This document shows, in pieces, positions 7,695 to 22,368 of a stretch of DNA of 64,000 bases. How positions within the stretch are numbered: the first letter of the stretch is position 1; each line of letters starts with the position of its first letter. A program made the translations under genes and the position numbers. Source of the DNA: Lutibacter profundi (GTDB lineage: Bacteria > Bacteroidota > Bacteroidia > Flavobacteriales > Flavobacteriaceae); contig NZ_CP013355.1 of the NCBI RefSeq assembly GCF_001543325.1, positions 2,510,001 to 2,574,000 of the forward strand, read 5' to 3'. The notes beneath the pieces were generated by a model that made no database searches, was not told where the DNA came from, and saw only the letters and a program-made list of their open reading frames with translations.

Positions 7695-7731
7695 ATGCAA
7701 CCCAATTGCATTTAATATTTTCTTATTTTTG
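7695..7731 (+). promoter_or_regulatory. metal-type promoter: ATGCA-N7-TGCAT operator plus -7 element (copy 1)
   Basis: A 17-bp inverted repeat (7695-7711: ATGCA, ACCCAAT, TGCAT; outer bases extend the match to AAATGCA/TGCATTT) is followed after exactly 12 nt by TATTTTTG (7724-7731), a Bacteroidota -7 element. The gene at 7740 starts 8 nt later. The same architecture occurs before 17409 and 20428. The repeat covers the expected -33 region, so it could be a repressor operator or an activator site. The regulator is not identified. Confidence 0.65.
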
Positions 7732-7739
7732 ACCTGTTT

Positions 7740-8051
7740 ATGAAATTAATAGTCATCATATTATCAATTTATACGGTTGTTTTAACTGCAATACCGTGTG
7801 ATGATGTATTTATTAATGATAAACAACAGGAGATGTCAATTTCTCAAAGTTCTGATGATGTCAATCACAATACATTTGATTTATGTTCTCCTTTTTGTTC
7901 TTGCGTTTGTTGTGCTAGTTTTTTTACAGAGCAACCTATTTATGATGAAGTTCTTCAAACTAAAATAGCTGTAAAAGAATTGTGTACTTTTAGTAACACT
8001 TCTTTTGCTAATAATTATTTTTCTAAAATTTATCAGCCACCAAGAGTTTAA
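7740..8051 (+). CDS. small exported Cys-rich protein (DUF6660-like)
   Basis: A 103-residue protein with a signal sequence (about residues 1-20) and a Cys-rich middle (LCSPFCSCVCCASFF, about residues 54-68). Small proteins of this kind, annotated DUF6660, are commonly found directly before CzcA/CusA-type pumps in Bacteroidota, as here (73 nt upstream). The cysteines suggest a role in sensing or binding metal in the periplasm, but no function is established. It is the first gene behind the copy 1 operator. The leader is short, so this gene may be nearly leaderless. Confidence 0.75.
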   Translation: MKLIVIILSIYTVVLTAIPCDDVFINDKQQEMSISQSSDDVNHNTFDLCSPFCSCVCCASFFTEQPIYDEVLQTKIAVKELCTFSNTSFANNYFSKIYQPPRV

Positions 8052-8124
8052 GTTATAAAAACAGATTTAAATACCTCCTATTTTTTTAGGAATTATCTAT
8101 TTATAACAATTTAAACTTTTAAAA

Positions 8125-11100
8125 ATGATCAATAAAATCATTCGTTTTTCCATTAACAATAAATTCATTATTGGCTTATTTATCCTTGTACTTATTGGTG
8201 CAGGTACATATTCAATGATGACTGTAAAATTGGGATCAGTACCCGATATTACAAATAACCAAGTACAAGTAATTACCGTTGCACCAAATTTAGGAACGGA
8301 AGATATAGAACAGTTTGTAACTTATCCTATAGAATTAGCAGTAGCCAACTTACCTAGCGTTACAGAATTACGTTCTGTATCTCGTTTTGGGCTTTCAGTT
8401 GTAACCATTGTATTTAAAGATGAAATGGGCACCTATTTACCACGGCAATTAGTGCAAGAAAAATTAACCGAGATACAAGAAGATATCCCAGCGGGTTTTG
8501 GAAAACCTTTTATGGCTCCAATTGCTACAGGTTTGGGTGAAATTTACCAATATTCATTGGTGCCAAAAAAAGGATTTGAACATAAGTATTCACCCTCTGA
8601 TTTAAGAACCATTCAAGATTGGATTGTAAAGCGGCAAATGGCTTTGGTGCCAGGCGTTGTAGAAATAAACTCTTTTGGAGGAAATGTGAAGCAATATGAA
8701 GTTGCTCTAAATCCCAATAAATTAAATAGTATGGGAATTAGCATTAGTGAAGTTTTTGAAGCACTAGAAAATAATAATTCCAATACAGGAGGTGCCTATA
8801 TCGAAAAAAATCATCAAGCTAATTTTATTCGTGGAGAGGGGTTGGCAAGATCAATAGATGATATTAAAAATATTGTTATTGAAAACAATGAAAACACCCC
8901 TATTTTAATTAAAGATGTTGCAGATGCTGTTCGTTTTGGATCAGCTGTTCGTTATGGGGCTTTTACTGAAGATGGGCAAGAATCTGTAGGAGGTCAGGTG
9001 CTTATGTTAAAAGGTGAAAACCCTAATGAGGTCATTAAAAATGTACAAAAACGTATTGCCAATATTCAAAAATCATTACCTGAAGGGCTTGAAATAAAAC
9101 CATTTTTAGATAGAAGTGATTTAATTGCACGTACCACAAGTACCGTCTCAAAAAATTTAATTGAAGGAGCTTTAATTGTAGTATTTGTATTGGTTTTATT
9201 ACTGGGTAGTTTACGTGGAGGATTACTTACAGCATCCATCATCCCGTTATCTTTATTATTTGCATTTATTTTAATGAAAGCAACAGGCGTTTGGGCTAAT
9301 TTAATGAGTTTAGGAGCCATAGATTTTGGGATTATAGTTGATGGAGCCGTAATTATTGTTGAAGGTACCGTACATCATATAGAACAGCGAATTAAAAAGA
9401 ATAAAGGCAATTTCACAGCGCAGGAAATGGATGAATTAAGCTACAAATCAAGTAGTATGATGATGAATTCGGCATTTTTCGGCCAACTTATTATTTTAAT
9501 TGTATTTACACCCATATTATTTTTAACTGGTGTTGAAGGTAAAATGTTTAGACCCATGGCATTTACTTTTGGGTTTGCAGTTTTAGGAGCATTATTATTG
9601 TGTTTAACCTATGTGCCTGTAATGGCATCATTATTTATGAAACCAACTTCACAAGAAAAAAGAACTTGGTTTACAAAGATTGAAGATTGGTTAACAAAAC
9701 TAAGTAATAAAATGATGTCAAGTATTTTTAAAGTCTATAAACCATTAATAGAGGGTGCTTTAAAATTTAAAAAAGCAGTAATAGCTGTTGCAGTATTGTT
9801 ATTTATTATTGCAGGTGTTGTATTTTCTAAAATGGGTGGAGAATTTATCCCAAAATTAGACGAAGGAGATATTGCCATGCAAATTATTATGAAGCCAGGG
9901 AGTTCTTTATCTGAATCTATTAAAATTTCTGAAGAAGTTGAAAACATTATAACTTCTAATTTCCCTGAAGTTAAAACCATGGTTGGCCGTATTGGTGTTG
10001 CAGAAATTCCAACAGACCCAATGCCAATGGATATCGTTGATAGCTTTATCATTTTAGAAAAAGATATGGATAAATGGACTTCGGCAAAAACTAAAGAAGC
10101 ACTGATTGAAAAAATGCAAAATAAGTTAAAAATAATTGTAGGGGTCAATTTTATATTCACCCAGCCAGTTGAATTACGCTTTAATGAATTACTTACCGGT
10201 GTGAGAGAAGATGTAGCTATAAAATTATATGGAAATGATTTGAATGTTTTGGCAACTAAAGCTGAGGAGATGGCAAAAATTATTAAAACCGTTAAAGGGG
10301 CAGCTGATGTACGTGCTGAAGCTACGGAAGGTTTACCACAAATCACAGTAAATTATCAGCGAGAAAAATTGGCTAAATACGGTTTATCTATTAGCAAATT
10401 AAATCAATATGTGAGTGCTGCATTTGCAGGAGCTAATGCAGGAATTATTTTTGAAGGAGAAAAACGTTTTGATTTGGTAGTTCGTTTTTCGAGTGCTTAT
10501 AGACAAAGTATGGATGATTTAAAAAACTTATTTGTCGATTTACCCAATGAAAGCTCTCAAATTCCGCTTAAAGAATTGGCAGATATTAGCTACGGTCCTG
10601 GACCAATGCAAATTTCAAGAGACAATACCTACCGAAGAGTATCTGTTGGTGTTAACGTAAGAGGACGAGATGTAGAATCTATGGTAGAAGAAGTGCAACA
10701 AAAATTAGATGCTGAGCTAGATTTACCCGATGGTTATTTTATTGAATATGGAGGGTCTTTCGAAAATTTAAAACGCGCAAAAGAACGCCTAACAATTGTG
10801 GTGCCTATTGCTCTATTTTTAATATTTATACTGTTGTATTTTGCCTTAAACTCATTTAAACAAGCTACCATGATATATATGGCAGTACCATTGGCAGCAA
10901 TTGGAGGGATTTACTTTTTAGCAGTTAGAGGCATGCCTTTCAGTATTTCAGCAGGTGTTGGTTTTGTAGTGTTGTTTGGTGTGGCTGTTTTAAACGGATT
11001 GGTGTTAGTGAGTCGATTTAATAGTTTAAAATTAGAAGGAATGACAAATATAAAAGACCGTATTTTACTAGCAACAGAAGAGCGATTACGTCCTATTTTA

Positions 11101-12516
11101 TTAACAGCGGTTGCAGCTATAATGGGTTTCATGCCAATGGCAATCTCTGCATCAGCAGGAGCTGAAGTACAAAGGCCTTTAGCAACAGTTGTTATTGGTG
11201 GTTTAATTTCATCAACTTTTTTAACATTATTAGTAGTTCCTGTATTGTATTATTTAGTTGAAAGTAGTTCGCAAAAAAGAAAAGGAAAACAAACGAATAA
11301 AATAAATAAGTCAATAATAACTATTTTAATGTTGGGTTTTTTCTCTTTTGCTGGATTAAATTCCGCTAGGGCGCAAGAGCAAACTAAAAACCTGACTGTA
11401 GAAAAAGCGGTAAGTATTGCTTTTGAAAACAACCCAACTATAAAAGCTGCTAATTTAGAAATTGAAAAACAAGAAAGTCTTAAAAAATCAGCTTTTGATT
11501 TAGATAAAACTACTGTTTCCTATTCAAAAGGTCAGTTAAATTCTGTACAAACAGATTATCAATTAAATATCTCTCAGGATTTTAAATTTCCAACAGTTTA
11601 TGGAATACAATCAAAATTACAAAAAGAGAAAATTGTTTTAAGTGAAGCTTCATTAACACTAAAGAAAAATATTTTAGAACGAAATGTACGAGCTATTTAT
11701 ATGCAATTATGGTATGCGAAAAATAAATTCACATTAATTTCAACATTAGAAAAAGAGTTTGAAAATTTTGCGATTATTGCCCAAAAAAGATTTGAATCTG
11801 GTGAAACAAACTTAATTGAAAAAATAGCGGCAGAGAGTAAACGAGAAGAAGTACGTTTATTAAAATCAGAAGCTAATTTAGATATAGAAAATTTAAGAAA
11901 GCAACTACAATTGTTGCTAAATAGTACTAATTATATAACTATTTTAGATAAGAACTTACAAAAAATACCTTTTAACTTAATTGAAGAGTTAGAGGATGAG
12001 AACCCTATTTTAAAATTGCAAGAACAAGTTGTTACCATTTCAAAAAGGCAACATAAACTAGAGAAATCTAAATTTTTGCCAGATTTATCTGCAGGATATT
12101 TCAATCAACAAATTGATGGGGTTAAAAATTTCACAGGATTTCAGTTAGGTTTAAAAATACCAGTATTCTTTTGGTCTCAAAAAGGAAAAACACAGGCAGC
12201 TAAAAAAAATAGTGAAATTGCTCAAATGAATTATGAGCAAACTAAATTAGATATTTACTCAGTTTTAAAAACAAATTTACAAGACTATGAAAAATATAAG
12301 GCGTCATTATTGTATTATGAAACTAAAGGTTTACAATTAGCTGATACGTTATTTTTATCGGCTAATAAGGCTTACAAAGAGGGTGAAGTAGGTTATGTTG
12401 AATATATAACATCTTTGGAACAAGCCGTACAAATTAAAACAGATTATTTAAGTAAACTTAATTTGTACAATCAAACAGTAATTAAAATAAATTATTTAAC
12501 AGGAAAATTTAATTAA
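8125..12516 (+). CDS. czcA: heavy-metal RND efflux pump fused to an outer-membrane channel (CzcA-CzcC)
   Basis: Residues 1 to about 1045 are a complete HME-RND pump: first membrane helix near residues 12-32, periplasmic porter domains, and the proton-relay helix AIDFGIIVDGAVIIVE with D400, D406 and E413. DFG-x3-D is the pattern of divalent-cation (Zn/Co/Cd) pumps rather than Cu/Ag pumps. Residues about 1095-1463 are a TolC/CzcC-type outer-membrane factor (LTVEKAVSIAFENNPTIKAAN). Between them, residues 1055-1083 look like a full signal peptide: basic KINK, a hydrophobic stretch and a SARA-Q cleavage site. Such fusions are known in Bacteroidota; cleavage into two proteins is my inference. czcB follows. 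Confidence 0.93.
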   Translation: MINKIIRFSINNKFIIGLFILVLIGAGTYSMMTVKLGSVPDITNNQVQVITVAPNLGTEDIEQFVTYPIELAVANLPSVTELRSVSRFGLSVVTIVFKDEMGTYLPRQLVQEKLTEIQEDIPAGFGKPFMAPIATGLGEIYQYSLVPKKGFEHKYSPSDLRTIQDWIVKRQMALVPGVVEINSFGGNVKQYEVALNPNKLNSMGISISEVFEALENNNSNTGGAYIEKNHQANFIRGEGLARSIDDIKNIVIENNENTPILIKDVADAVRFGSAVRYGAFTEDGQESVGGQVLMLKGENPNEVIKNVQKRIANIQKSLPEGLEIKPFLDRSDLIARTTSTVSKNLIEGALIVVFVLVLLLGSLRGGLLTASIIPLSLLFAFILMKATGVWANLMSLGAIDFGIIVDGAVIIVEGTVHHIEQRIKKNKGNFTAQEMDELSYKSSSMMMNSAFFGQLIILIVFTPILFLTGVEGKMFRPMAFTFGFAVLGALLLCLTYVPVMASLFMKPTSQEKRTWFTKIEDWLTKLSNKMMSSIFKVYKPLIEGALKFKKAVIAVAVLLFIIAGVVFSKMGGEFIPKLDEGDIAMQIIMKPGSSLSESIKISEEVENIITSNFPEVKTMVGRIGVAEIPTDPMPMDIVDSFIILEKDMDKWTSAKTKEALIEKMQNKLKIIVGVNFIFTQPVELRFNELLTGVREDVAIKLYGNDLNVLATKAEEMAKIIKTVKGAADVRAEATEGLPQITVNYQREKLAKYGLSISKLNQYVSAAFAGANAGIIFEGEKRFDLVVRFSSAYRQSMDDLKNLFVDLPNESSQIPLKELADISYGPGPMQISRDNTYRRVSVGVNVRGRDVESMVEEVQQKLDAELDLPDGYFIEYGGSFENLKRAKERLTIVVPIALFLIFILLYFALNSFKQATMIYMAVPLAAIGGIYFLAVRGMPFSISAGVGFVVLFGVAVLNGLVLVSRFNSLKLEGMTNIKDRILLATEERLRPILLTAVAAIMGFMPMAISASAGAEVQRPLATVVIGGLISSTFLTLLVVPVLYYLVESSSQKRKGKQTNKINKSIITILMLGFFSFAGLNSARAQEQTKNLTVEKAVSIAFENNPTIKAANLEIEKQESLKKSAFDLDKTTVSYSKGQLNSVQTDYQLNISQDFKFPTVYGIQSKLQKEKIVLSEASLTLKKNILERNVRAIYMQLWYAKNKFTLISTLEKEFENFAIIAQKRFESGETNLIEKIAAESKREEVRLLKSEANLDIENLRKQLQLLLNSTNYITILDKNLQKIPFNLIEELEDENPILKLQEQVVTISKRQHKLEKSKFLPDLSAGYFNQQIDGVKNFTGFQLGLKIPVFFWSQKGKTQAAKKNSEIAQMNYEQTKLDIYSVLKTNLQDYEKYKASLLYYETKGLQLADTLFLSANKAYKEGEVGYVEYITSLEQAVQIKTDYLSKLNLYNQTVIKINYLTGKFN

Positions 12517-12562
12517 AACAACAGAATGTCTTTGGCATTTAATAAATATTAAAAATAATCAG

Positions 12563-13750
12563 ATGAAATATATAATAAAAATTAGCAGCGTATTTTTACT
12601 TCTTGTTTTTTTAGCGAGTTGCCAAAATAAAACAACTCAACAAAACGAAGAAACTAACCAAGAAAGTAGTGAGCATGAAGAAACCACAAATATTGTAACA
12701 CTACAACAAAAACAGTTAGAAGTTATGGATATTGAGTTGGGCACTACCAAACAAGTAAATTTAGGAGCTACATTAAAAGTAAATGGACAATTAGAATTAC
12801 CACCTCAAAAAAGGGCAAGTGTAAGTGCAATTGTAGGAGGTCGCGTAGAAAGTGTGGCTGTAATTGAAGGAGATTATGTAAAAAAGGGACAAATAATAGC
12901 TCAATTAAATAATCCTAAATTTATTACCATGCAGCGTGAATATTTAATAGCAAAAAGTAATTTTTCATTTTTGGAAAAAGATTATTTACGTAAAAAAGAA
13001 TTGTTAAAAGACGGTATTACTTCTCGAAAATCTTTCCAGCAAGCAGAAGCAGCATTTAAAGATGGTAAATCTACGCTAAATGCTACTAAATCAATGTTAC
13101 AAGTGATAGGTGTAAATATTTCAACATTAGAGAACGGTCAAATTAGGTCTTCAATACCAATAGTTTCACCAATTAAAGGATACGTTCAAAGTATAGCCAT
13201 TAATATTGGGAAATTTGTAGCACCAGAGCAAGAAATGTTTGAGATTATTGATAACGAACACTTGCATATTGGATTGAAAGTTTTTGAAAAAGATATTGAC
13301 AAAGCCAAAGTAGGGCAAAAAATTACATTTGCTTTAACAACCAGACCCGATAAAATTTATGAAGCCGAAATTTTTGCTTTGGGTAGCGCTTTTGATATGA
13401 ATACAAGAGCTGTAAAAGTACATGCAAAAATTATGGGAACGCATAAAGGTTTGTTAACAGGGATGTTTGTTGAAGCAAGAATTATAACAAAAAGCAAGGA
13501 AGTTAGAGCACTTCCAAATGGCGCTTTTATTACTGAAAAAGGGTTAGATTATGTTTTTGTTCAAAAAGAAACAAATAAACAGCATATTACATTTGAAAAG
13601 GTTCAAATAAATAGAGGGGTTTCAGATTTAGGTTTTTCAGAAGTAGTTTTTATTAATAAAAAGCCAAAAGATATTGTGTTTGTTACTAAAGGAGCCTACT
13701 ATGTTAACGCAGAATTAAATAAAGGTGAGTTTGAAGAGCATGAACATTAA
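12563..13750 (+). CDS. czcB: RND efflux periplasmic adaptor lipoprotein (CzcB family)
   Basis: This 395-residue protein is the membrane-fusion subunit that connects the CzcA pump to the outer-membrane channel. It has a lipoprotein signal (LLVFLASC, acylated Cys at about residue 20), a barrel-sandwich (biotinyl-lipoyl-like) half VSAIVGGRVESVAVIEGDYVKKGQIIAQL, a coiled-coil hairpin (about residues 118-180), then IKGYVQSIAINIGKFV, the second lipoyl half, and a C-terminal beta-barrel and membrane-proximal domain. It lies 46 nt after the CzcA-CzcC fusion and 23 nt before a P-II-like gene, clearly in the same operon. Confidence 0.94.
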   Translation: MKYIIKISSVFLLLVFLASCQNKTTQQNEETNQESSEHEETTNIVTLQQKQLEVMDIELGTTKQVNLGATLKVNGQLELPPQKRASVSAIVGGRVESVAVIEGDYVKKGQIIAQLNNPKFITMQREYLIAKSNFSFLEKDYLRKKELLKDGITSRKSFQQAEAAFKDGKSTLNATKSMLQVIGVNISTLENGQIRSSIPIVSPIKGYVQSIAINIGKFVAPEQEMFEIIDNEHLHIGLKVFEKDIDKAKVGQKITFALTTRPDKIYEAEIFALGSAFDMNTRAVKVHAKIMGTHKGLLTGMFVEARIITKSKEVRALPNGAFITEKGLDYVFVQKETNKQHITFEKVQINRGVSDLGFSEVVFINKKPKDIVFVTKGAYYVNAELNKGEFEEHEH

Positions 13751-13773
13751 ATAATAACATTAAATTTATAAAA

Positions 13774-14112
13774 ATGAAAGAAATTAAAGCATATATAAAA
13801 CCAAATAAATTAGAAAAAGTAGTTGAAGGACTTAAAGAAAATGGCTTTGAAAGTGTCACGCTATTAGAATGTGAAGGAACAGGTACTTATAAACGAGAAG
13901 ATTCCTTACCTTCGTTAAAATTTCATTTTGCAGATAGTAAAATGATTAAATTAGAGTTAGTGTGCCAAGATGAAGAAGCAGAAAGTGCCATTGAAATAAT
14001 TTGTAAAAACGCTTCTACACCTTATCCAGCAGATGGAATTATTTACATTTCTAATATAAAAGATGTATATAGAATAAAAACATGTAAATCAATAAAAAAA
14101 ATAGATTTTTGA
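13774..14112 (+). CDS. P-II-like protein linked to metal efflux (PII-NG type)
   Basis: The 112-residue protein has the P-II fold pattern: start MKEIKAYIKPNKLEKVVEGL, a central variable loop and the C-terminal strand DGIIYISNIKDVYRIKT. The loop (ECEGTGTYKREDSLPSL) is short and lacks the uridylylated Tyr context of GlnB/GlnK, so a nitrogen role is unlikely. A distinct P-II group, described as PII-NG, is known to sit beside CusABC/CzcABC pumps in many bacteria, which fits this position directly after czcB. Its ligand is unknown; binding of a metal or nucleotide is inference. A Fur-family gene follows after 1 nt. Confidence 0.82.
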   Translation: MKEIKAYIKPNKLEKVVEGLKENGFESVTLLECEGTGTYKREDSLPSLKFHFADSKMIKLELVCQDEEAESAIEIICKNASTPYPADGIIYISNIKDVYRIKTCKSIKKIDF

Positions 14113-14113
14113 C

Positions 14114-14530
14114 ATGAATCTTAATCTAGAAAAAATTTTAGACAAGCATAATGTAAAACCAACAGCAATGCGACTGTTGGTTTTACAATTTCTTTTAACA
14201 GAAAAAGCAGCAATGAGTTTAACTGATTTAGAAAACTATTTTGATAAATCTGATAGAACAACCTTATACCGTACGTTAAAAACTTTTGTGAAGAGCGAAA
14301 TTGCTCATAAGATTGATGATGGTACAGGGGTAACTAAATATGCCTTGTGTGAAGAAAATTGCCATTGCGAAATTGAAAATGATTTACATGTCCATTTTCA
14401 TTGTAAAATTTGTAATGAAACTATTTGTTTTCCAGAGAATAAAATTCCTTACATAAATTTACCTGATGGTTTTTTGGCAGATGACATTAGTTTAACTGTT
14501 ACAGGAATTTGTAATAAGTGTAATGAATAA
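14114..14530 (+). CDS. Fur-family metal-dependent transcriptional regulator
   Basis: A 138-residue DNA-binding protein with the Fur layout: winged helix in residues 1-80 (KPTAMRLLVLQFLL, SDRTTLYRTLKTF) and a metal-binding dimer domain (LHVHFHCKICNETICF and GICNKCNE). The two CxxC pairs form the structural zinc site. The Cys/His-rich stretch CEENCHCEIENDLHVHFHC resembles Zur-type members more than PerR. As the last gene of the czc operon it is a natural candidate for reading the ATGCA-N7-TGCAT operators, but Fur-family boxes are usually longer palindromes, so this is open. Confidence 0.9.
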   Translation: MNLNLEKILDKHNVKPTAMRLLVLQFLLTEKAAMSLTDLENYFDKSDRTTLYRTLKTFVKSEIAHKIDDGTGVTKYALCEENCHCEIENDLHVHFHCKICNETICFPENKIPYINLPDGFLADDISLTVTGICNKCNE

Positions 14531-14573
14531 TTTGCTTAGTTAAGAATATTGCAGTATTATTAATATTAGAAGT

Positions 14574-14596
14574 TGTAATTTGAAAATAAAATTACA
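14574..14596 (+). promoter_or_regulatory. 23-bp inverted repeat before the CsoR-like gene
   Basis: Perfect arms TGTAATTT and AAATTACA separated by 7 nt lie 20 nt before the start codon at 14617, inside the 86-bp gap after the Fur-family gene. The form resembles a Fur/Zur-type operator, but it consists almost only of A and T, so it may be chance. Confidence 0.35.
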
Positions 14597-14616
14597 TTTT
14601 AAGTTAATTAATTATA

Positions 14617-15003
14617 ATGAAGAAACCTGTAAATAAATTGCCGTCAGATTTAGTTTTAGATATTAAAAATAGGCTTAAAACTTTGAGTGGACAAATAAAT
14701 GGAATAGTGAAAATGCTTGACGAAGGTAAAGATCTTGAGCAAATTAATATTCAGTTCAAATCTGTTGACAAGGGTTTGCAAAAAGCACACTATTTATTGC
14801 TAGATGAAGTATATAGAAAAGCGCTTGCCATAGGTATTGTTAAAGCCGTTGATTCATGTCCTGGAGATTGTGGAAGCGAAGATAAAATAGAATACCTAAA
14901 AAATGAATTTCCAACTATTGCATTAACAGATTTAACCGATAAACTTAAAGAAATTCAGTTAATAGCAAATCGCTTAAACCAATACAACGAAAAAAAGTTG
15001 TAA
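14617..15003 (+). CDS. CsoR/DUF156-like transcriptional regulator without the usual metal ligands
   Basis: The 128-residue protein has the all-helical CsoR/RcnR pattern: IKNRLKTLSGQINGIVKMLDEGKDLEQINIQF, then LQKAHYLLLDEVYRKAL. The residues that bind Cu in CsoR (Cys, His, Cys) fall on L40, V65 and A69 here, so the classical site is absent. A CPGDC motif (C81, C85) follows in a C-terminal extension of about 45 residues and may be a replacement metal or thiol sensor. It precedes a thioredoxin-like and MerP/MerT-like gene set and a C-rich possible operator, which suggests local control. The regulator identity is likely, its ligand unknown. Confidence 0.8.
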   Translation: MKKPVNKLPSDLVLDIKNRLKTLSGQINGIVKMLDEGKDLEQINIQFKSVDKGLQKAHYLLLDEVYRKALAIGIVKAVDSCPGDCGSEDKIEYLKNEFPTIALTDLTDKLKEIQLIANRLNQYNEKKL

Positions 15004-15013
15004 AATAATTTGC

Positions 15014-15042
15014 ATACCCCCTCCCATACGTATTCATCTTTG
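15014..15042 (+). promoter_or_regulatory. C-rich possible operator with -7 like element before the thioredoxin/MerP/MerT genes
   Basis: ATACCCCCTCCCATACGTAT (15014-15033) stands out in AT-rich DNA. It has ATAC/GTAT ends and a CCCCC core, like operators of the CsoR/RcnR/FrmR family (TA-rich ends around a G/C tract). CATCTTTG (15035-15042), close to TAnnTTTG, follows directly. The CsoR-like gene ends 10 nt upstream, so the site is well placed for control of 15068 onward. Assignment is inference. Confidence 0.5.
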
Positions 15043-15067
15043 TGCTAGAATTTAAATTGTAGAACTG

Positions 15068-15325
15068 ATGAATAAAAATCATATTGAAATTTTTACAGCA
15101 GGGTGTTCTATTTGTGAACCTGTAGTGCAGTTAGTTAAAGAGACTGCTGGAGCCAATTGTAATATTTCCATTTACAATTTATCAGAACGAAGTTATAATA
15201 ATATTTGTAAGAAATACAGTATTAAAAGACTTCCATCTCTTGTTGTAAATGGAATATTATTAGATTGTTGTAAAAATATTGAGATTACTAAAGAAGATTT
15301 AATTAATGCAGGAATAGGTAACTAA
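15068..15325 (+). CDS. small thioredoxin/glutaredoxin-like protein
   Basis: An 85-residue protein without a signal peptide. It has the thioredoxin-fold order: strand HIEIFTAG, redox motif C13-S-I-C16, helix, strand CNISIYNL, and the cis-proline context KRLPSLVVNG. A second Cys pair (LLDCCKN) near residue 68 is unusual and could bind a metal. It is first behind the C-rich site and 27 nt before a MerP-like gene. Cytoplasmic reduction of a metal-bound or disulphide-bonded partner, perhaps the CsoR-like or MerT-like protein, is a reasonable guess. It is not a full-length thioredoxin. Confidence 0.75.
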   Translation: MNKNHIEIFTAGCSICEPVVQLVKETAGANCNISIYNLSERSYNNICKKYSIKRLPSLVVNGILLDCCKNIEITKEDLINAGIGN

Positions 15326-15352
15326 TTATTAACAAATTTTAAAACTACTAAC

Positions 15353-15712
15353 ATGAAAAAATTATTAAAAACAACACCTTTTTTGGGACTTATACTAACT
15401 ATTTTCCTTTTTGGGCAATTAGGAACCGTAAATGCCCAAAGTAAAACAAGCCACATATATATTAAAATTGAAATAAATGGGATGGTTTGTTCTAATTGTG
15501 CTTTTGGTATGGAAAAAGAATTGAAAAAAGTATCAGGTGTTGCTGATGTGCAGATTCAATTAAAAGAAGGATTGGCGTATATCTCTACGTTAGTAAAGGA
15601 AAAACCTTTAAAAGAAGAGTTAGCATTAATTATTACAAAAGCAGGATTTACACCTGGAAAAATAGAATTTAGTGACAAGCCTTTTGCTAAAGAAAATACT
15701 TTAAAAAAATGA
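15353..15712 (+). CDS. periplasmic MerP-like heavy-metal-associated (HMA) protein, copy 1
   Basis: This 119-residue protein has a signal peptide (about residues 1-28, cleaved after VNA) and one HMA domain: IKIEINGMVCSNCAFGMEKELKKVSGV, with C46 and C49 as the metal ligands. The domain ends with ITKAGFTPGKIEFSDK. Exported HMA proteins such as MerP capture soft metal ions in the periplasm and pass them to a membrane partner. The stop overlaps the MerT-like start by 4 nt (ATGA), so they are translationally coupled. A paralogue lies at 16910. Confidence 0.87.
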   Translation: MKKLLKTTPFLGLILTIFLFGQLGTVNAQSKTSHIYIKIEINGMVCSNCAFGMEKELKKVSGVADVQIQLKEGLAYISTLVKEKPLKEELALIITKAGFTPGKIEFSDKPFAKENTLKK

Positions 15713-16110
15713 AAAATTTAAAAACTGATGTAACAAGCATTTTGTCATTGTTTACATCATTCTCAACTCTTTTGTGTTGTGCATTACCGGCCTTATTAGT
15801 TACTTTAGGCTTTGGAGCTGTTATGGCAGGTTTGATTTCTGATTTGCCTTTTTTAAGAACACTAAGTTTGTATAAAGAATGGACATTTTTTATAGCTACC
15901 CTGTTAATTGGATTTAACTTTTGGTTGGTTTACAAAAAAAAATCACAAAATGTTAATTGTGAAATTCCTGTGAATGGTGTTGAATCTGCTTGTGATACTG
16001 CTTCATATTGGTCGAAAATTATCTTATGGATATCGGCAGTACTTTTGTTTACAGGATTTTTTATGGCTTATTTAGCATTGCCACTCATGAAATTTATGGA
16101 TTCTCTATAG
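15709..16110 (+). CDS. MerT-like inner-membrane metal transport protein
   Basis: The 133-residue protein has three predicted membrane helices (about 12-42, 58-76 and 101-126). The first carries a vicinal pair C23-C24 (STLLCCALPALLVTLGFG), as in the mercury importer MerT. The cytoplasmic loop between helices 2 and 3 holds two more Cys (NVNCEIPVNGVESACDTAS), again as in MerT. MerT takes a soft metal from MerP and carries it inward. However, neither merA nor merR is nearby, so mercury detoxification is not supported. The substrate could be another soft metal. Confidence 0.78.
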   Translation: MKNLKTDVTSILSLFTSFSTLLCCALPALLVTLGFGAVMAGLISDLPFLRTLSLYKEWTFFIATLLIGFNFWLVYKKKSQNVNCEIPVNGVESACDTASYWSKIILWISAVLLFTGFFMAYLALPLMKFMDSL

Positions 16111-16119
16111 AATTTAACT

Positions 16120-16899
16120 ATGAATAAAATAGTAGATATTAAACGAAAATTTTTGTTAATACTTATGCTTATTAACACGATGATTTCATTTGCCCATGAA
16201 CCTATTTATGGGTTAGGCCCAGAAACCTTGCCTAAGCATCTTCATGCAATTGAAATAGGAACATTTATAAGACAAGGGAGATTGGAATACGAGTTAGGAT
16301 ATGGATACGGAATTACACAAAATTTAACAGTACGTATTGATGCTTTAATTAATAATAATGCAGCAACCAGTATTCAAGGGGTAAAAATAAAAACCAAATT
16401 TGCTCTTTGGCGCAAAATGTCACCAGGAGTATTAAAAAGACTTACAGCTATTGCAGCGGTTAAACTTCCTTCAACAACCCAATACAACTCAAATAAAGTT
16501 ACGGCATATACACTAGGGCTTGCTAATGGATATGAATCTCGTAAATGGTATTATTTTTCAGACATTAGTTATACCTACCAACAGGCAAAATTAGGTGTGC
16601 AACCCGGCGCTAATTTGAAATATAATTTGGTAGGAGGTATTAGACCCATAAAATCTGATTATTTAAAACCAGATTTAGTTCTTTTGGTAGAGTTGAATGG
16701 TGAATATAGAGGAGTATCACGTTTAAATAATGTGGAAATTGATAAAACGAATGGCAATACCCTAGCTGTAGCTCCAGGATTTTTATTTAGTTATAGAAAT
16801 ATTATGCTAAAAGGAGGTGTTCAATTTGGTATAGCCAAAACGAAGAATATAAAGAAATTTAAGCCCAACGCAGTGGTGACTTTAGAATATCATTTTTAA
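16120..16899 (+). CDS. predicted outer-membrane beta-barrel protein of the MerP/MerT-like cluster
   Basis: A 259-residue protein with a signal peptide (MLINTMISFA, cleaved before HEPIYG) and a run of alternating strands ending in an aromatic residue (AVVTLEYHF), the usual end of an outer-membrane barrel. The mature N-terminus is His-rich (HEPIYGLGPETLPKHLHAIEIG), which could bind metal. It resembles the broad transporter / Phenol_MetA_deg type barrels. It is 9 nt after the MerT-like gene and 10 nt before the second MerP-like gene. A role as the outer-membrane step for the same substrate is inference. Confidence 0.68.
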   Translation: MNKIVDIKRKFLLILMLINTMISFAHEPIYGLGPETLPKHLHAIEIGTFIRQGRLEYELGYGYGITQNLTVRIDALINNNAATSIQGVKIKTKFALWRKMSPGVLKRLTAIAAVKLPSTTQYNSNKVTAYTLGLANGYESRKWYYFSDISYTYQQAKLGVQPGANLKYNLVGGIRPIKSDYLKPDLVLLVELNGEYRGVSRLNNVEIDKTNGNTLAVAPGFLFSYRNIMLKGGVQFGIAKTKNIKKFKPNAVVTLEYHF

Positions 16900-16909
16900 A
16901 TCTAAAAAC

Positions 16910-17260
16910 ATGAAAAATATAGTAAAAAAAATAATAGTTCTTATGCTTTTAATATCAAATTTAGGAGTTGTTCAAGCAGAAGTTAAAATAAAAAAACTTA
17001 ATCAAACTGGAACATATATAAAAATTTGGGTAGATGGTTTAGCCTGTCCTTTTTGTGCCTATGGTTTGGAAAAACAAATAAAGAGAATTGAAGGAGTTAA
17101 AAATTTGCATATTGATTTAAATAGGGGGTTTATAACGTTCACAGCAATTTCTGAAAAAAAACCAACTGAAGAAAGGTTAAAAAAATTGGTTAAAGAGGCC
17201 GGGTTTGTTGCCAGAAAAATAGAGTACTCAAAAACAGATTTTGTATTAAATGAAAATTAA
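16910..17260 (+). CDS. periplasmic MerP-like heavy-metal-associated (HMA) protein, copy 2
   Basis: This 116-residue protein has a signal peptide (about residues 1-24) and an HMA domain with ligands C46 and C49, the same positions as in the protein at 15353. The motif is changed to GLACPFCAYGLEKQIKRIEGV: the usual Met before the first Cys is Ala and a Pro-Phe pair lies between the cysteines. The ending KEAGFVARKIEYSKTDF also matches copy 1, so they are paralogues. The two flank the MerT-like and barrel genes. The operon appears to end here, before the 148-bp gap with operator copy 2. Confidence 0.85.
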   Translation: MKNIVKKIIVLMLLISNLGVVQAEVKIKKLNQTGTYIKIWVDGLACPFCAYGLEKQIKRIEGVKNLHIDLNRGFITFTAISEKKPTEERLKKLVKEAGFVARKIEYSKTDFVLNEN

Positions 17261-17343
17261 AAATTAAGATAAAAATATACAATTCATCTCAATTTAATTT
17301 TTATATAAAAAACAAATACAATTAGATATAAGAACAGGAAAAT

Positions 17344-17380
17344 ATGCACTTCTGTTGCATTACATATTGATGTACTTTTA
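17344..17380 (+). promoter_or_regulatory. metal-type promoter: ATGCA-N7-TGCAT operator plus -7 element (copy 2)
   Basis: ATGCA-CTTCTGT-TGCAT (17344-17360) is followed after 12 nt by TACTTTTA (17373-17380), one base from the -7 consensus. Repeat, spacing and position match copies 1 and 3. It lies 29 nt before the cytochrome gene. Confidence 0.62.
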
Positions 17381-17408
17381 TTGAATATTAATTATAATAA
17401 GTACAATT

Positions 17409-18113
17409 ATGAAAACAAAAATGAATATAGGTTTCGGTTTATTATTAGCCGTATTAATTGTGTCTGCTTATGGTTTTCAAGGCAACAACTCTAAATCTAC
17501 ATTAAACAATTATGAACCTAAAAAAAAAGAGTTAAATATTACAGGAAGCGAGTTATTTCAAAATAATTGCGCTGCTTGTCATGGAACAGACCGAAAAGGG
17601 AATTTACCAACTTTTCCTTCTTTGGTTAACATTAACCAAAAGTTAAGTAAAAATCAAATAGGCGAGCTACTTCAAACGGGAAGAAATATAATGCCTAATT
17701 TCTCACATTTATCCAGTTCAGAAAGAAATGCTATTGTAGGATTTTTATATGGTGAATCAACTTCATCTGCCGTTGCAACAAAAATTTCTTCAGTAGAAAA
17801 AGGAAAAAACCTTTTTATAGCAAATTGTGCACGTTGTCACCAACCTAATCCCAAAAATTTAAACGGTCAAAATCAAATGCAAAATCAATTGGGAATGGGA
17901 ATGAAACCTCCTGTGCTTAATGGGGTTAATAAATGGGTTAATATTTATCAATTTAAACAAATTTTAAATATGGGGCCTTGTTATATGCCTTCATTTGCTT
18001 CAATGGATAATGAAGATAAAGAAGATATTTATACCTATTTAAGTTCGTTGAAAACGAACTATCAAAGTAATAACAGAATGAGAAGAGGATGCCGTATGGG
18101 GATGATGAGATAA
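17409..18113 (+). CDS. exported dihaem c-type cytochrome
   Basis: The 234-residue protein has a signal sequence (about residues 1-22) and two cytochrome c domains in tandem: C54-A-A-C57-H58 (FQNNCAACHGTDRKGN) and C140-A-R-C143-H144 (FIANCARCHQPNPKN). Met ligand candidates are in NIMPNFSHL and CYMPSFASM. It therefore carries electrons in the periplasm or at the outer face. A Met-rich stretch (NQMQNQLGMGMKPP) and a Met/Arg tail (MRRGCRMGMMR) are odd and could bind Cu or Ag. It is first behind operator copy 2, so it is probably metal-regulated. The redox partner is unknown. Confidence 0.88.
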   Translation: MKTKMNIGFGLLLAVLIVSAYGFQGNNSKSTLNNYEPKKKELNITGSELFQNNCAACHGTDRKGNLPTFPSLVNINQKLSKNQIGELLQTGRNIMPNFSHLSSSERNAIVGFLYGESTSSAVATKISSVEKGKNLFIANCARCHQPNPKNLNGQNQMQNQLGMGMKPPVLNGVNKWVNIYQFKQILNMGPCYMPSFASMDNEDKEDIYTYLSSLKTNYQSNNRMRRGCRMGMMR

Positions 18114-18181
18114 ACGATATTGAAAATATCGGTAAATAAATTATTTAACCTATAAAATAGAATAACTAAAAATTAAAAATT

Positions 18182-18406
18182 ATGTGGTACGAATGTAATA
18201 ATAATTGGCATTATTTTGGAATGCACGGATTTTGGTGGCTCTTTTGGATCATCGCATTAATTGTAATCTTTTTGGTCTTAAAACCATATTTGATTAATAA
18301 AAAAGAAAAAGATTCTTCACTAGAAATTTTAAGACGTAAATACGCCTCTGGTAACATCTCTACTGAAGAGTATGAAGAAAGAAAAAGAATACTTGAAAAT
18401 GAGTAA
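18182..18406 (+). CDS. SHOCT-domain membrane protein, copy 1
   Basis: A 74-residue protein with one membrane helix (about residues 13-38) flanked by aromatic residues (MHGFWWLFWIIALIVIF) and a C-terminal SHOCT motif, LEILRRKYASGNISTEEYEERKRILE. SHOCT (short C-terminal) motifs are common on small membrane proteins and are thought to help oligomerisation; the function is unknown. The N-terminus (MWYECNNNWHYFGMHG) has Cys, His and Met. It is 68 nt after the cytochrome. A close paralogue follows at 18541. Confidence 0.8.
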   Translation: MWYECNNNWHYFGMHGFWWLFWIIALIVIFLVLKPYLINKKEKDSSLEILRRKYASGNISTEEYEERKRILENE

Positions 18407-18540
18407 TACTATTTTAAGTCTTAACTTTAAATACAAATTTCAGTAAAAATTATTATAAACCATTGTTTTAATAAAACAACATTAAAAAACAATTTATTAA
18501 ATTGTAAGCAGATATTATTAAAAAATTAAAATTTAAAATT

Positions 18541-18768
18541 ATGTGGTGGAATGATTGCGATAGTAGAGAATATTTTTATGTCTCACATGGAATTTGGTGG
18601 TTCTTTTGGTTGGCGATATTAGTTATTGCCTATTTAATGCTAAAAGCATATTTAGATAGTAAAAAGGAGAAAGATTCATCTTTAAAAATATTAAAGCGTA
18701 AATATGCCTTAGGAGAAATTTCTACAGAAGAATATGAAGAAAGAAAAAGGGTATTAGAAAAAAAATAG
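18541..18768 (+). CDS. SHOCT-domain membrane protein, copy 2
   Basis: This 75-residue paralogue of the gene at 18182 keeps the start MWW-x-DC, the HGIWWFFW helix entry (about residues 17-40) and the SHOCT tail LKILKRKYALGEISTEEYEERKRVLE. The two genes share most residues from the helix onward and must come from a tandem duplication. The 134-bp gap between them contains a perfect short hairpin (TTGTTTTA / TAAAACAA) without a T run after it. Function unknown. Confidence 0.8.
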   Translation: MWWNDCDSREYFYVSHGIWWFFWLAILVIAYLMLKAYLDSKKEKDSSLKILKRKYALGEISTEEYEERKRVLEKK

Positions 18769-18843
18769 AATACAGAATTTAATATTTTTATAATTGAAAT
18801 TAAAAAAATTAAGTATAAAATAAAGAATTAAACAAATATTATT

Positions 18844-19230
18844 ATGGACTATTATTTCAATAAAATTGTTTCAGGAGATTTTAATCAAACAATAGAAAAA
18901 GTAAAAGAAGTATTAAAAACAGAAGGTTTTGGAGTACTTACAGAAATAGATATTAAAGCAACTTTAAAGAAGAAACTAGATGTTGAATTTTATAATTATA
19001 TAATTTTAGGAGCCTGCAACCCTACCTTTGCATATAAAGCATTACAAACTGAAGATAAAATTGGTACAATGCTTCCGTGCAATGTAATTGTTCAAGAAAA
19101 AAAGCTTGGGAAAATTGAAGTATCAGCAGTAGACCCTGCAGCTTCAATGAACGCAATTGAAAATGAAGCATTAATAAAAGTAGCTTCACAAGTAAGAGAT
19201 AAATTAAAAAGGGTAATTGATAAACTATAA
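18844..19230 (+). CDS. DUF302 domain-containing protein
   Basis: A 128-residue soluble protein matching DUF302: FNQTIEKVKEVLKTEGFGVLTEIDIKATLKKKLD, then YIILGACNPTFAYKALQTEDKIGTMLPCNVIVQ and AVDPAASMNAIENEALIKVASQVRDKLKRVI. The family is widespread next to metal, sulphur and heat-shock genes, and its biochemical function is not known. Two conserved Cys (ACNP and LPCN) are present. It has no signal peptide. It continues the + strand series begun at 17409, 75 nt after the second SHOCT gene. Confidence 0.88.
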   Translation: MDYYFNKIVSGDFNQTIEKVKEVLKTEGFGVLTEIDIKATLKKKLDVEFYNYIILGACNPTFAYKALQTEDKIGTMLPCNVIVQEKKLGKIEVSAVDPAASMNAIENEALIKVASQVRDKLKRVIDKL

Positions 19231-19423
19231 GGTGAAAACCTTGTAATACGTATAGTTTATACCAATTAATTGAAAACACTAATTTGTTAAAAAAACAGAG
19301 TAAACGAGGTAGGGTTTGTTGCACTAAATATGTTTGTATATAAAAGACATTATTACTAAATAGTAAAACTCAAAACAATTACAATAGTTGCTAAAAAAAG
19401 TAGAACTTAAAAAGGTAAATAAA

Positions 19424-19681
19424 ATGAATAATAATAAAATAGTAAAAAGTGTTGAAAATGTAAATAGTTATAATGAGTTAAAATCTGATGCAATATATCA
19501 TATAGGCGAATGTATGGCTGTTAGAGAACAAATAATTAAAAATAAAAATAGTGTAATTATTGCTAAAGTAAATAATTTAGAAATTGCATTATGTGATAAT
19601 GGTAAATTTGAAGAATTGTTAGATAATGAAATTAAGCAAGCCGGACTTTGTTTAGAGAATAAGCCCAATAATTTTATGTAG
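19424..19681 (+). CDS. uncharacterised 85-residue protein in the metal block
   Basis: The frame can be opened upstream at a TTG (19388), but the ATG at 19424 (MNNNKIVKSVENVNS) is the more likely start. The protein is small, soluble and charged, without a signal peptide or membrane helix. It has three Cys (GECMAVREQ, IALCDNGK, AGLCLENK). I do not recognise a family. Position between DUF302 and YceI-like genes suggests it is part of the same response, but nothing in its sequence gives a role. Confidence 0.6.
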   Translation: MNNNKIVKSVENVNSYNELKSDAIYHIGECMAVREQIIKNKNSVIIAKVNNLEIALCDNGKFEELLDNEIKQAGLCLENKPNNFM

Positions 19682-19778
19682 ATTATTATGTAAGTTTAAT
19701 ACATTAAAAAGATAAATAAAAAATAACTAAGAATTAATAGAAAACAGGAATAACTAACATTACTTTAAACCAACAACT

Positions 19779-20327
19779 ATGATTGTGACTATAAAAAATA
19801 TACTTTTCATTTGTGTTATTGTTCTATCCTTTCAAATGGTACATTCTCAAACAACTTATATGACCAAAAAAGGTCATTTAAAAATGGTTGGAAGAGTTAA
19901 TGATAAGCCTGTTATTGCAGAAAGTCATAAGCTTTCAGTATTTTTAGATTATAAAACTAAACAAATAAAAGGAACGCTAGACCTTAAAAGCTTAGTTAGT
20001 AAAATTCCAGAATTAAAAAATTATTTAAAAGAGCAACAACAACCACTAATGGTCTATTTTTCGGGAACAATTCCATCAGATGATTTTATGTCTCAACCCC
20101 ATCAACCTCTTATTTTTAATTGGGAAGTAACGGTTGCTTTTCAAAATAAAAAGTTTAAGGTAATACTTAAAACAACTCTTCAGCATATTGAAGAAGGATC
20201 TGTTTTTTCATGTCGCTTAAACGCTATGGGGAATGTTAATACAGATATAATAGGGCTAAATAAAATAATACCAGATTTAGATAAAACAATTGAAATTCAA
20301 TTTATTCAGTTTATTTTAAGGGTATAA
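19779..20327 (+). CDS. exported YceI-like protein
   Basis: A 182-residue protein with a signal peptide (about residues 1-23, ending MVHSQ) and a beta-rich body that fits the YceI lipocalin-like barrel: HLKMVGRVNDKPVIAESHKLSVFLDYKTKQIKGTLDLKSL, ending IEIQFIQFILRV. YceI proteins bind long isoprenoids or amphiphilic compounds in the periplasm. The match is by pattern only and weaker than for standard YceI, so the family call is tentative. It precedes operator copy 3 by 44 nt. Confidence 0.6.
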   Translation: MIVTIKNILFICVIVLSFQMVHSQTTYMTKKGHLKMVGRVNDKPVIAESHKLSVFLDYKTKQIKGTLDLKSLVSKIPELKNYLKEQQQPLMVYFSGTIPSDDFMSQPHQPLIFNWEVTVAFQNKKFKVILKTTLQHIEEGSVFSCRLNAMGNVNTDIIGLNKIIPDLDKTIEIQFIQFILRV

Positions 20328-20371
20328 AAATAGAATAATTAACAACAAATATTAGAATTAACAATTAACAA

Positions 20372-20408
20372 ATGCACTTCCATCGCATGGTGTCTTTTGA
20401 TAATTTTG
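20372..20408 (+). promoter_or_regulatory. metal-type promoter: ATGCA-N7-TGCAT operator plus -7 element (copy 3)
   Basis: ATGCA-CTTCCAT-CGCAT (20372-20388; one mismatch in the right arm) is followed after 12 nt by TAATTTTG (20401-20408), a full TAnnTTTG match. The P-type ATPase starts 20 nt later. The spacer CTTC is shared with copy 2. Confidence 0.62.
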
Positions 20409-20427: not shown

Positions 20428-22368
20428 ATGAGTGAAGATTGTAAAGAAGGTTCAGCTTGCGCAGTTGATTATAGTCAAGAAACAAAGAGAATAGATTTCA
20501 ATAAATTTAGACATGAATATGTAATTTCAGCAATAGTTTTTGTGCTGTTGATAATAGGAATTTTGCTAGATTATAATAATTTACTCTTTTTTGATCAAGA
20601 TGATTCTCTTATTTGGTTTTTTGTATTGTATATTGTTATTGGAGGAAAAACCATTATTCAGGCATTAATTTTAATGCTTAGTAGAGATTTTTACAATGAA
20701 TTTGTTTTAATGACCATTGCTACACTGGGAGCCTTTCTTATAAATTCCTATGCTGAAGCTGTTGCGGTAATGCTATTTTATGTAGTTGGTGAATTATTTC
20801 AAGAAGCAGCTGTAAATAAAGCAAAAAATTCCATAGAGGCTTTATTAAAAGTACAGGTAGATGCGGTTACCGTTTTAGAAAAAGGAATACCAGTAATTAA
20901 GCATCCAAATAAAGTTAAAATAGGTCAAATTATTCAGGTTAAACCTGGAGAAAAAGTGGCACTAGATGGTGTGTTAGTTTCTGAATTAGGGACGTTAAAT
21001 ACAGCTGCTTTAACAGGAGAATCTGTTCCAGACAATAAGAAAAAAGGAGAAACAGTACTTGCCGGTATGATTAATATTAATACGCCAATAGAAATAAAAG
21101 TAACTACGAAGTATGCTGACACAAAACTTTCTAAAATTTTAAAACTTGTTCAAGAAGCAACAGGTAGAAAAGCTAAAACACAATTATTAGTTAGTAGATT
21201 AGCAAAAGTTTATACACCAATAGTATTTTGGTTAGCAATTGCTTTAGTTATAATTCCTTATTTTTTTCTTGGTGATGCCTACGTATTTCAAATGTGGTTT
21301 CAAAGAGCTTTAATTTTCTTAGTTATTTCTTGTCCTTGTGCTTTGGTAATTTCAATTCCTTTAGGATATTTTGGGGGTATTGGAGCCGCATCTCATAATG
21401 GTATCTTATTTAAAGGATCAAATTTTTTGGAACTATTAACAAAAGTAGATACCATTGTTATGGATAAAACAGGGACATTAACCAAAGGTGTTTTTGAAGT
21501 TCAAAATATAGTTTCTGAAAATTTTGATAAAGAACTATTGGTAAATTTAACGGCTGTATTAGAAGCTAATTCTACACATCCAATTGCAGATGCTATTGTA
21601 AAATATGCAAATATTACAGACAATAGATTTGAATCATATAATGTTGAAGAGATTTCGGGTTACGGATTAAAAGGGGAAGTTAATAATTACAAAATTTTAG
21701 CAGGAAATGCTAAATTGCTTGATAAATTTAAGATACCTTATAGTGAAAAACTTAAAGAAATTACCGAAACTATTGTAATTATAGCCATTAATGGTGTATA
21801 CGCGGGCTATATTACTATAGCTGACACACTAAAAGATGATGCTAAAAATGCAATCTCGGCTTTACATAGTATTAAAAAAATATCTAAAGTGGTAATGCTA
21901 TCAGGAGACAAACAACTTGTGGTAGATAAAATAGCAAAACAATTAGGAATTGATGAAGCAATTGGAGGCCTATTACCAGAAGATAAAATAAATGAAGTTG
22001 AGAAACTTAAAAAAGAAGGTAGAATAATTGCTTTTATTGGAGATGGTATTAATGATGCACCTGTTATTACAATTGCAGATGTAGGGATGGCAATGGGAGG
22101 TTTAGGTAGTGATGCGGCTATAGAAACAGCAGATGTTGTTATACAAACAGACCAACCTTCAAGAATAGCTACAGCAATAAAAATAAGTAATTCAACTACC
22201 AATATTATATGGCAAAATATTATTTTGGCTCTAGGTGTTAAAATATTGGTATTAATTTTAGGGGCATTTGGTATGGCAACTTTGTGGGAAGCTGTAATTG
22301 CTGATGTTGGGGTAGCATTATTGGCCATTTTAAATGCTGTTCGTCTTCAAAAAATGAAATGGTCTTAA
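20428..22368 (+). CDS. Zn2+/Cd2+/Pb2+-type P1B ATPase (ZntA/CadA family)
   Basis: This 646-residue inner-membrane pump exports a soft divalent metal with ATP. It has the metal-path motif C302-P-C304 (SCPCALVISIPLG), the phosphorylation motif D346-KTGTLTKG, the HP motif (STHPIADAIV) and the hinge GDGINDAP. An Asp in the last helix (VIADVGVALL) is the ligand typical of the Zn/Cd/Pb subgroup. There is no N-terminal HMA domain, only a short Cys pair (DCKEGSACAVD). It lies directly behind operator copy 3, so metal induction is likely. It complements the CzcA-type pump by moving metal from cytoplasm to periplasm. Confidence 0.93.
   Translation: MSEDCKEGSACAVDYSQETKRIDFNKFRHEYVISAIVFVLLIIGILLDYNNLLFFDQDDSLIWFFVLYIVIGGKTIIQALILMLSRDFYNEFVLMTIATLGAFLINSYAEAVAVMLFYVVGELFQEAAVNKAKNSIEALLKVQVDAVTVLEKGIPVIKHPNKVKIGQIIQVKPGEKVALDGVLVSELGTLNTAALTGESVPDNKKKGETVLAGMININTPIEIKVTTKYADTKLSKILKLVQEATGRKAKTQLLVSRLAKVYTPIVFWLAIALVIIPYFFLGDAYVFQMWFQRALIFLVISCPCALVISIPLGYFGGIGAASHNGILFKGSNFLELLTKVDTIVMDKTGTLTKGVFEVQNIVSENFDKELLVNLTAVLEANSTHPIADAIVKYANITDNRFESYNVEEISGYGLKGEVNNYKILAGNAKLLDKFKIPYSEKLKEITETIVIIAINGVYAGYITIADTLKDDAKNAISALHSIKKISKVVMLSGDKQLVVDKIAKQLGIDEAIGGLLPEDKINEVEKLKKEGRIIAFIGDGINDAPVITIADVGMAMGGLGSDAAIETADVVIQTDQPSRIATAIKISNSTTNIIWQNIILALGVKILVLILGAFGMATLWEAVIADVGVALLAILNAVRLQKMKWS

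Follow-up and report, generated by a model that had tools for sequence, protein, structure and literature searches.

We analysed a window of 64,000 nucleotides (nt) of the Lutibacter profundi genome (contig NZ_CP013355.1, positions 2,510,001 to 2,574,000 of the forward strand), in which three 17-bp inverted repeats, here called boxes, precede genes of a metal-export block that also encodes a Fur-family metalloregulator. The box is very probably the switch through which a Fur-type sensor controls metal export. The boxes, -7 elements and genes listed next lie on the plus strand, and positions are numbered within the window. Box 1 (7695-7711; ATGCAACCCAATTGCAT) is followed after 12 nt by the -7 element TATTTTTG (7724-7731) and lies 5' of a row of genes encoding, in order, a DUF6660 small Cys-containing protein (7740-8051; Pfam PF20365 with 38.6 bits, cut-off 27), a CzcA/CusA-type RND pump fused with an outer-membrane efflux (OEP) domain (8125-12516; TIGR00914 with 1162 bits, PF02321), a CzcB/CusB-type periplasmic adaptor (12563-13750; PF16576, TIGR01730), a P-II-like protein (13774-14112; PF00543) and the Fur-family metalloregulator (14114-14530; PF01475 with 30.3 bits, cut-off 23.1), the proposed reader of all three boxes. 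Box 2 (17344-17360; ATGCACTTCTGTTGCAT) lies 12 nt 5' of the -7 element TACTTTTA (17373-17380), and its first downstream gene encodes a c-type cytochrome with two haem-binding domains (17409-18113; PF13442 in two stretches). Box 3 (20372-20388; ATGCACTTCCATCGCAT), which carries one mismatch (TCGCAT), is again separated by 12 nt from its -7 element TAATTTTG (20401-20408) and precedes a P1B metal ATPase (20428-22368; TIGR01512 with 474 bits, cut-off 313.5), for which a Cd-family model ranks best after the general heavy-metal model.

The three repeats, each followed by exactly 12 nt and TAnnTTT(G/A), are thus present as the original prediction had read them, and family searches confirmed the genes it had placed downstream of them. 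The primary-sigma consensus of Bacteroidota consists of a -7 element TAnnTTTG and a -33 element TTG or TTTG about 19-20 nt upstream of the -7. This -7 consensus is exact in two of the three window promoters (TATTTTTG and TAATTTTG), TACTTTTA having a final A, and the dyad centre lies about 20 nt upstream of the TA of the -7 element, which is the place expected for the -33 element.

The identical spacing had been judged hard to explain by chance, a claim that cross-genome conservation bears out, while the genome of L. profundi alone speaks for it less strongly than was claimed. A chance origin, or an artefact of an AT-rich genome, would agree with the dyad on its own not being rare: the window contains three dyads with at most one mismatch, as many as expected from shuffling (mean 2.77), and the 2.97 Mb genome contains 91, three of them exact. 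The third exact dyad, at genome position 457281, lies inside an open reading frame (ORF) of 517 amino acids that, in its sequence, reads like a helicase. The reversed dyad gave 40 matches genome-wide, but it contains CpG and was not treated as a fair control. Demanding TAnnTTT(G/A) at one fixed offset from the dyad leaves three sites genome-wide against 0.57 expected (P 0.02), and with two offsets allowed 1.13 sites are expected (P 0.11). None of five further dyads with at most one mismatch (2913277, 457281, 2708515, 149567 and 180528) precedes a recognisable metal-export gene, the ORFs being judged by reading and without a family search. Since significance within the genome is weak, the claim needs other genomes, and there conservation is decisive: the pattern TGCAM-N5-TTGCAY-N11/12-TAnnTTT has 131 matches in 95 of 249 genomes of the family, whereas the reversed pattern has 10 (this count and that for the phylum sample below being by-eye counts from tables), and no scrambled dyad out of six exceeds 3 at any offset in the 80 loci described below. 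This leaves chance with a practically negligible probability.

Linkage of the box to the Fur gene was tested on genome sets drawn regardless of Fur, since the 80 loci (L059-L138) had been selected by it. In the family set 111 of the 131 boxes have, no more than 12 kb away, a listed relative of the Fur gene at 14114-14530. Counted by genome, 83 have both fur and box, 25 only fur, 12 only the box and 129 neither (odds ratio 36), the listed Fur matches reaching down to about E 3e-39 and weaker Fur relatives being counted as absent. The matches listed for CzcA, at least 150, comprise 94 close relatives of at least 1380 bits and a weaker group of 56. Among these listed matches, an exact box is present within 1.5 kb upstream in 57 of the 78 close CzcA genes with a Fur gene within 9 kb, in 2 of the 16 close CzcA genes without a nearby Fur gene (G232 and G147, both in fragmented assemblies) and in none of the 56 of the weaker group. 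From the 21 Fur-near CzcA genes without an exact box, 20 loci were fetched; 19 have a box with one mismatch and one has a box with two, the best match having its -7 element at exactly 11 nt in each, with an equal second match at 13 in L227. The unfetched exception is G202, in which the CzcA match begins at contig base 265. The box follows the Fur gene rather than the pump. Many equal copies at unrelated genes, or a lack of conservation upstream of orthologous metal genes, had been named at the outset as signs of chance; most boxes with the promoter geometry instead stand near Fur genes and are conserved upstream of orthologous metal genes, strongly supporting a regulator site common to the metal promoters.

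The 80 loci anchored on the Fur-family protein, with flanks of up to 10 kb, reveal how box and promoter are arranged. For ATGCA-N7-TGCAT with at most one mismatch, TAnnTTT occurs 60 times at offset 11, 31 times at offset 12 and at most 8 times at any other offset; these counts are not de-duplicated, and some boxes read on the opposite strand are included at offset 11. Two classes of box can be distinguished in the gene maps. The class 1 box, typically TTGCAACACCATTGCAT, precedes DUF6660-CzcA-CzcB-(PII)-Fur and is mostly separated by 11 nt from the -7 element, whereas the class 2 box, ATGCACTTCCRTTGCAY, has 12 nt to the -7 element and lies 3' of fur, before P1B or other metal genes; it contributes the opposite-strand readings just mentioned. 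In the window box 1 occupies the class 1 place, and boxes 2 and 3 have the class 2 sequence. The fixed spacing of 12 nt proposed for the window therefore applies there, but in relatives it can be either 11 or 12, usually 11 upstream of CzcA operons and 12 downstream of fur within the family. A class 2 box with at most one mismatch is found downstream of fur in 64 of the 80 loci. Among 47 distinct boxes after fur, 43 have a -7-like sequence at exactly 12 (25 TAnnTTT and 18 more NAnnTT), while NAnnTT occurs at offset 13 in 12 and at every other offset in at most 5. The 12-nt spacing after fur is kept even where the -7 element has drifted (18 of 43).

Two Lutibacter relatives can be compared with the window. 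The gene order in L059 is two boxes, DUF6660, CzcA, CzcB, PII, Fur, box, cytochrome, SHOCT, DUF302, box and P1B, close to that of the window without its CsoR-thioredoxin-HMA-MerT stretch; the equivalent of box 2 lies directly after fur and before the cytochrome gene in L059 and L060, and a perfect box occupies the place of box 3 before P1B in L059. Upstream of DUF6660 both loci carry two tandem boxes (at 3203 and 3521 in L059), one with a spacing of 11 and one of 12. The class 2 box often begins at the fur stop codon (offset -1 to 3; L108, L112, L097 and others), so that the operator overlaps the end of the gene of its supposed regulator. In L112 (7392-10400) a class 1 box is followed by genes for a small Cys protein and, judged by reading, a TonB-dependent-receptor-like protein, and then by fur, CzcA being replaced; L113, L118, L124 and other loci in which the box stands about 2.6 kb upstream of fur may resemble it.

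The linkage extends beyond the family. Of 296 genomes drawn across the phylum, 37 encode a Fur relative (E at most 1e-35) and 30 carry the box, the reversed pattern giving 6 matches; 23 of the 36 boxes have such a Fur gene no more than 12 kb away. Box and fur are linked in the family of L. profundi and in six other families of the phylum. We inspected 20 further loci, 16 from the phylum sample (13 with and three without the exact pattern near Fur) and four from the family. The box precedes P1B, CzcA or DUF6660, or fur itself, regardless of gene order: fur-box-P1B, box-P1B-fur, box-fur-P1B and fur-box-CzcA all occur in relatives, the box moving with the genes. Two of the 20 have no site combining box and -7 element; in L202 an exact box directly follows fur but no -7 is recognisable, and the L208 region (L228) holds a site with two mismatches. 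Taking all 100 loci together, TAnnTTT follows 92 of the 121 distinct exact boxes at 11 or 12. A second, lower-scoring Fur group has its own adjoining box, with variants such as TTGCAAACCGGTTGCAT (L205 8263, L206 8781); Fur and box may have been duplicated together in this group.

The original prediction had named two candidate regulators, the Fur-family protein (14114) and a CsoR-like protein (14617). Linkage favours the former, and the latter fails as a general reader: it was found in 14 of the 249 family genomes and is missing from 85 of the 95 genomes with a box (E 1e-5). The product of 14114 is predicted to have the Fur winged-helix and dimerisation-domain fold, the structure prediction (predicted local distance difference test, pLDDT, 85.1; predicted template modelling score, pTM, 0.77) giving Fur, PerR and Zur chains as best matches, many of them over the full length. 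H65, C79, C83, H92, H94, C97, C100, C105, C133, C136 and R53 are invariant in 89 of 89 sequences, C97, C100, C133 and C136 making up both CxxC motifs of a structural zinc site. In an alignment with E. coli Zur, H65 and C79 correspond to His77 and Cys88; the alignment is shifted by 3 at the CxxC motif and does not place His96 and Glu111, and with 26.2 bits against a cut-off of 167 the protein falls outside the NCBIfam Zur equivalog model PRK11639. R53 aligns with the arginine of the Zur YR motif, Arg65, which is described as contacting DNA in the available sections of PMC4219657.

According to the same source, each Zur monomer reads R-N-N-N-Y, the contacts being G7, A11', A12, A15, A16', G19', A20 and G24'. 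From these contacts we infer that one dimer could be accommodated on RNNNY-N3-RNNNY. The box consensus is a 17-bp dyad, WTGCAM-N4-RTTGCAY, on which the first half-site would extend from G3 to position 7 and, after three bases, the second would run from position 11 to C15. All 105 distinct boxes have A or C at position 6 and a purine at position 11, both positions having been left free in the search, and on the opposite strand the right half is GCAAY, in agreement with the Zur rule. These counts come from cleaner sets and supersede an earlier one (purine at position 11 in 114 of 115, pyrimidine at position 7 in 95 of 115), which included opposite-strand boxes. The RNNNY rule is therefore fitted fully by the right half and mostly by the left half, making it a test of modest weight.

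Several observations weigh against the box being a Fur operator throughout. Position 11 is a purine also in 21 of 26 other dyads of the same loci, and pyrimidines at position 7 (86 of 105 boxes) are in no clear excess over these dyads (19 of 26), position 7 thus providing no evidence. A class 2 box with at most one mismatch is absent within 1.5 kb after fur in 16 of the 80 loci, an exact-pattern box lies within 12 kb of only 20 of the 43 Fur genes listed for the phylum sample, and 20 of the 131 family boxes do not lie near a listed Fur gene. A different DNA-binding protein, be it the CsoR-like product of 14617 or a regulator that is not linked to the block, might read such boxes; the CsoR gene lies within the block, and 10 of the 14 genomes with CsoR have the box (Fisher P 0.011). 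We consider a reader other than the Fur-family protein improbable, given that most box genomes lack the CsoR-like protein, that it is present in only 2 of the 80 Fur-anchored loci and that box and fur are linked in seven families. MerR dyads lie between the promoter elements. The box dyad lies upstream of that interval, and a MerR-type operator was accordingly rejected. ZntR of Riemerella (PMC11960050), annotated there as a member of the MerR family, differs from the Fur-family protein at 14114.

Fur-family proteins usually bind DNA in the metal-loaded form. The data on balance support a model, rather probable in our judgement, according to which the 17-bp dyad is a Fur-family operator from which the metal-loaded dimer activates the efflux promoters, acting from a constant position across the -33 region. 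The dimer would cover this region and end 11-12 nt upstream of TAnnTTTG, and its metal-loaded form, carrying Zn/Cd or a similar thiophilic ion, would contact RNA polymerase in place of the -33 element and thereby switch efflux on. The Fur-family protein would also control its own gene, the fur gene standing in the row after box 1, so that the circuit is probably autoregulatory, with operon limits as gene order suggests them. Activation would explain the rigid phasing, the drifting -7 element, the kept putative sensor residues and the export targets, whereas the overlap with the -33 region would be explained by repression by an unliganded dimer.

This repression is the main rival, with the same operator and the same Fur-family protein: the metal-free dimer would block the -33 region, and metal would release it. 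The box lies where sigma would bind, autorepression would be natural for a fur gene inside its own operon, and Zur of Corynebacterium glutamicum represses two exporters from a site over the -35 element with unpopulated sensor sites, as reported in the accessible part of PMC6103462. Its site is a 10-1-10 direct repeat, in contrast to the dyad described here, although both are Fur-family sites overlapping the upstream promoter element of exporters. The spacing to the -7 element of 11 or 12 across families, even with a degenerate -7, would not be needed by a simple repressor, and binding without metal would depart from the usual mode of the family. We regard repression by the unliganded dimer as possible but doubtful. 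The promoter sequences contribute little to this choice. TTG at a gap of 19-20 occurs in 1 among 29 box promoters; a minor TTG maximum at 19-20, seen in mixed loci, did not recur in 526 kb of the organism's own genome sequence, whose non-box promoters have TTG at 18-21 in 11 of 114 and at 13-16 in 15 of 114. As these also have no clear -33 TTG, its absence at the boxes does not help in choosing the sign, which takes away from the activator model one of its apparent arguments.

Repression of the exporters by the metal-loaded protein in the classical style of Fur and Zur, for instance with another metal as co-repressor, would follow the default mode of the family. Nur of Streptomyces coelicolor, a Fur-family nickel sensor, represses sodF with nickel from a box overlapping the promoter and shares with our box the 17-bp dyad, the TGCA half-sites and the centre distance; its box, given as tTGCaa-N5-ttGCAA in the parts of PMC3919588 available, occupies the same 17-bp frame, with TTGCAA as right half where TTGCAY is found here. 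The likeness described is one of box architecture, and the boxes described here stand at exporters, in another phylum and in rigid phase with the Bacteroidota -7 element. With CzcA and P1B exporters as targets, switching export off at high metal makes little sense, and we hold this mode to be very improbable.

Activation of exporters by metal-loaded Fur-family proteins has precedents. S. coelicolor Zur likewise activates an exporter gene, zitB, in its metal-loaded form, but from a 7-1-7 motif 8 nt upstream of the -35 element and with full activation requiring oligomers that spread upstream (PMC5472717, in the sections available), whereas here a single 17-bp box lies over the -33 region. Xanthomonas campestris Zur activates a CDF exporter gene from a 59-bp, GC-rich site unlike its Zur boxes, as far as the accessible text of PMC6103462 describes it, in contrast to the compact conserved dyad found here. 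E. coli Zur differs in placing two dimers on a long operator and in repressing uptake.

Further features of the block concern its gene content. The P-II-like gene (13774-14112) sits inside the RND row, with the adaptor on one side and fur on the other. CzcA and OEP are fused in a single ORF (8125-12516), and most listed relatives likewise have open frames of about 1430 to 1515 codons. A second CzcA of the genome, 58% identical (G000:C1:380057-383191), is linked neither to the Fur gene at 14114 nor to any exact box. A CsoR-thioredoxin-HMA-MerT-like-HMA stretch (14617-17260) separates fur from box 2, and a CsoR plus thioredoxin gene is located elsewhere in L068 and L105; the stretch appears to be a cassette that was acquired or lost in one piece.

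The fold, a Fur-family protein at exporters and the dyad type each have precedents. What appears new is to find them combined, in several families, in a single compact box that keeps a fixed phase with the Bacteroidota -7 element at the promoters of RND, P1B and associated genes. No description of the box or of a Fur-controlled efflux block was recognised by title or start of the abstract among the papers listed from the open literature, subscription papers lying mostly outside the search, and the terms 'Bacteroid' and 'Flavobacter' are absent from the main text of a 2018 review of Zur regulons. That the protein is a metal-excess sensor and a strictly phased direct activator, replacing a missing -33 contact and serving RND and P1B export as well as its own gene across Bacteroidota families, is a proposal we see as evenly balanced. 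If true, the proposal would provide many Bacteroidota with a named metal-export regulon whose operator is readable, and would place a Fur-family protein sensing metal excess at a fixed -33 position, on a fold best known for repressors responding to metal shortage. It would also make testable the general question whether a Fur-family dimer can activate transcription by replacing an upstream promoter element.

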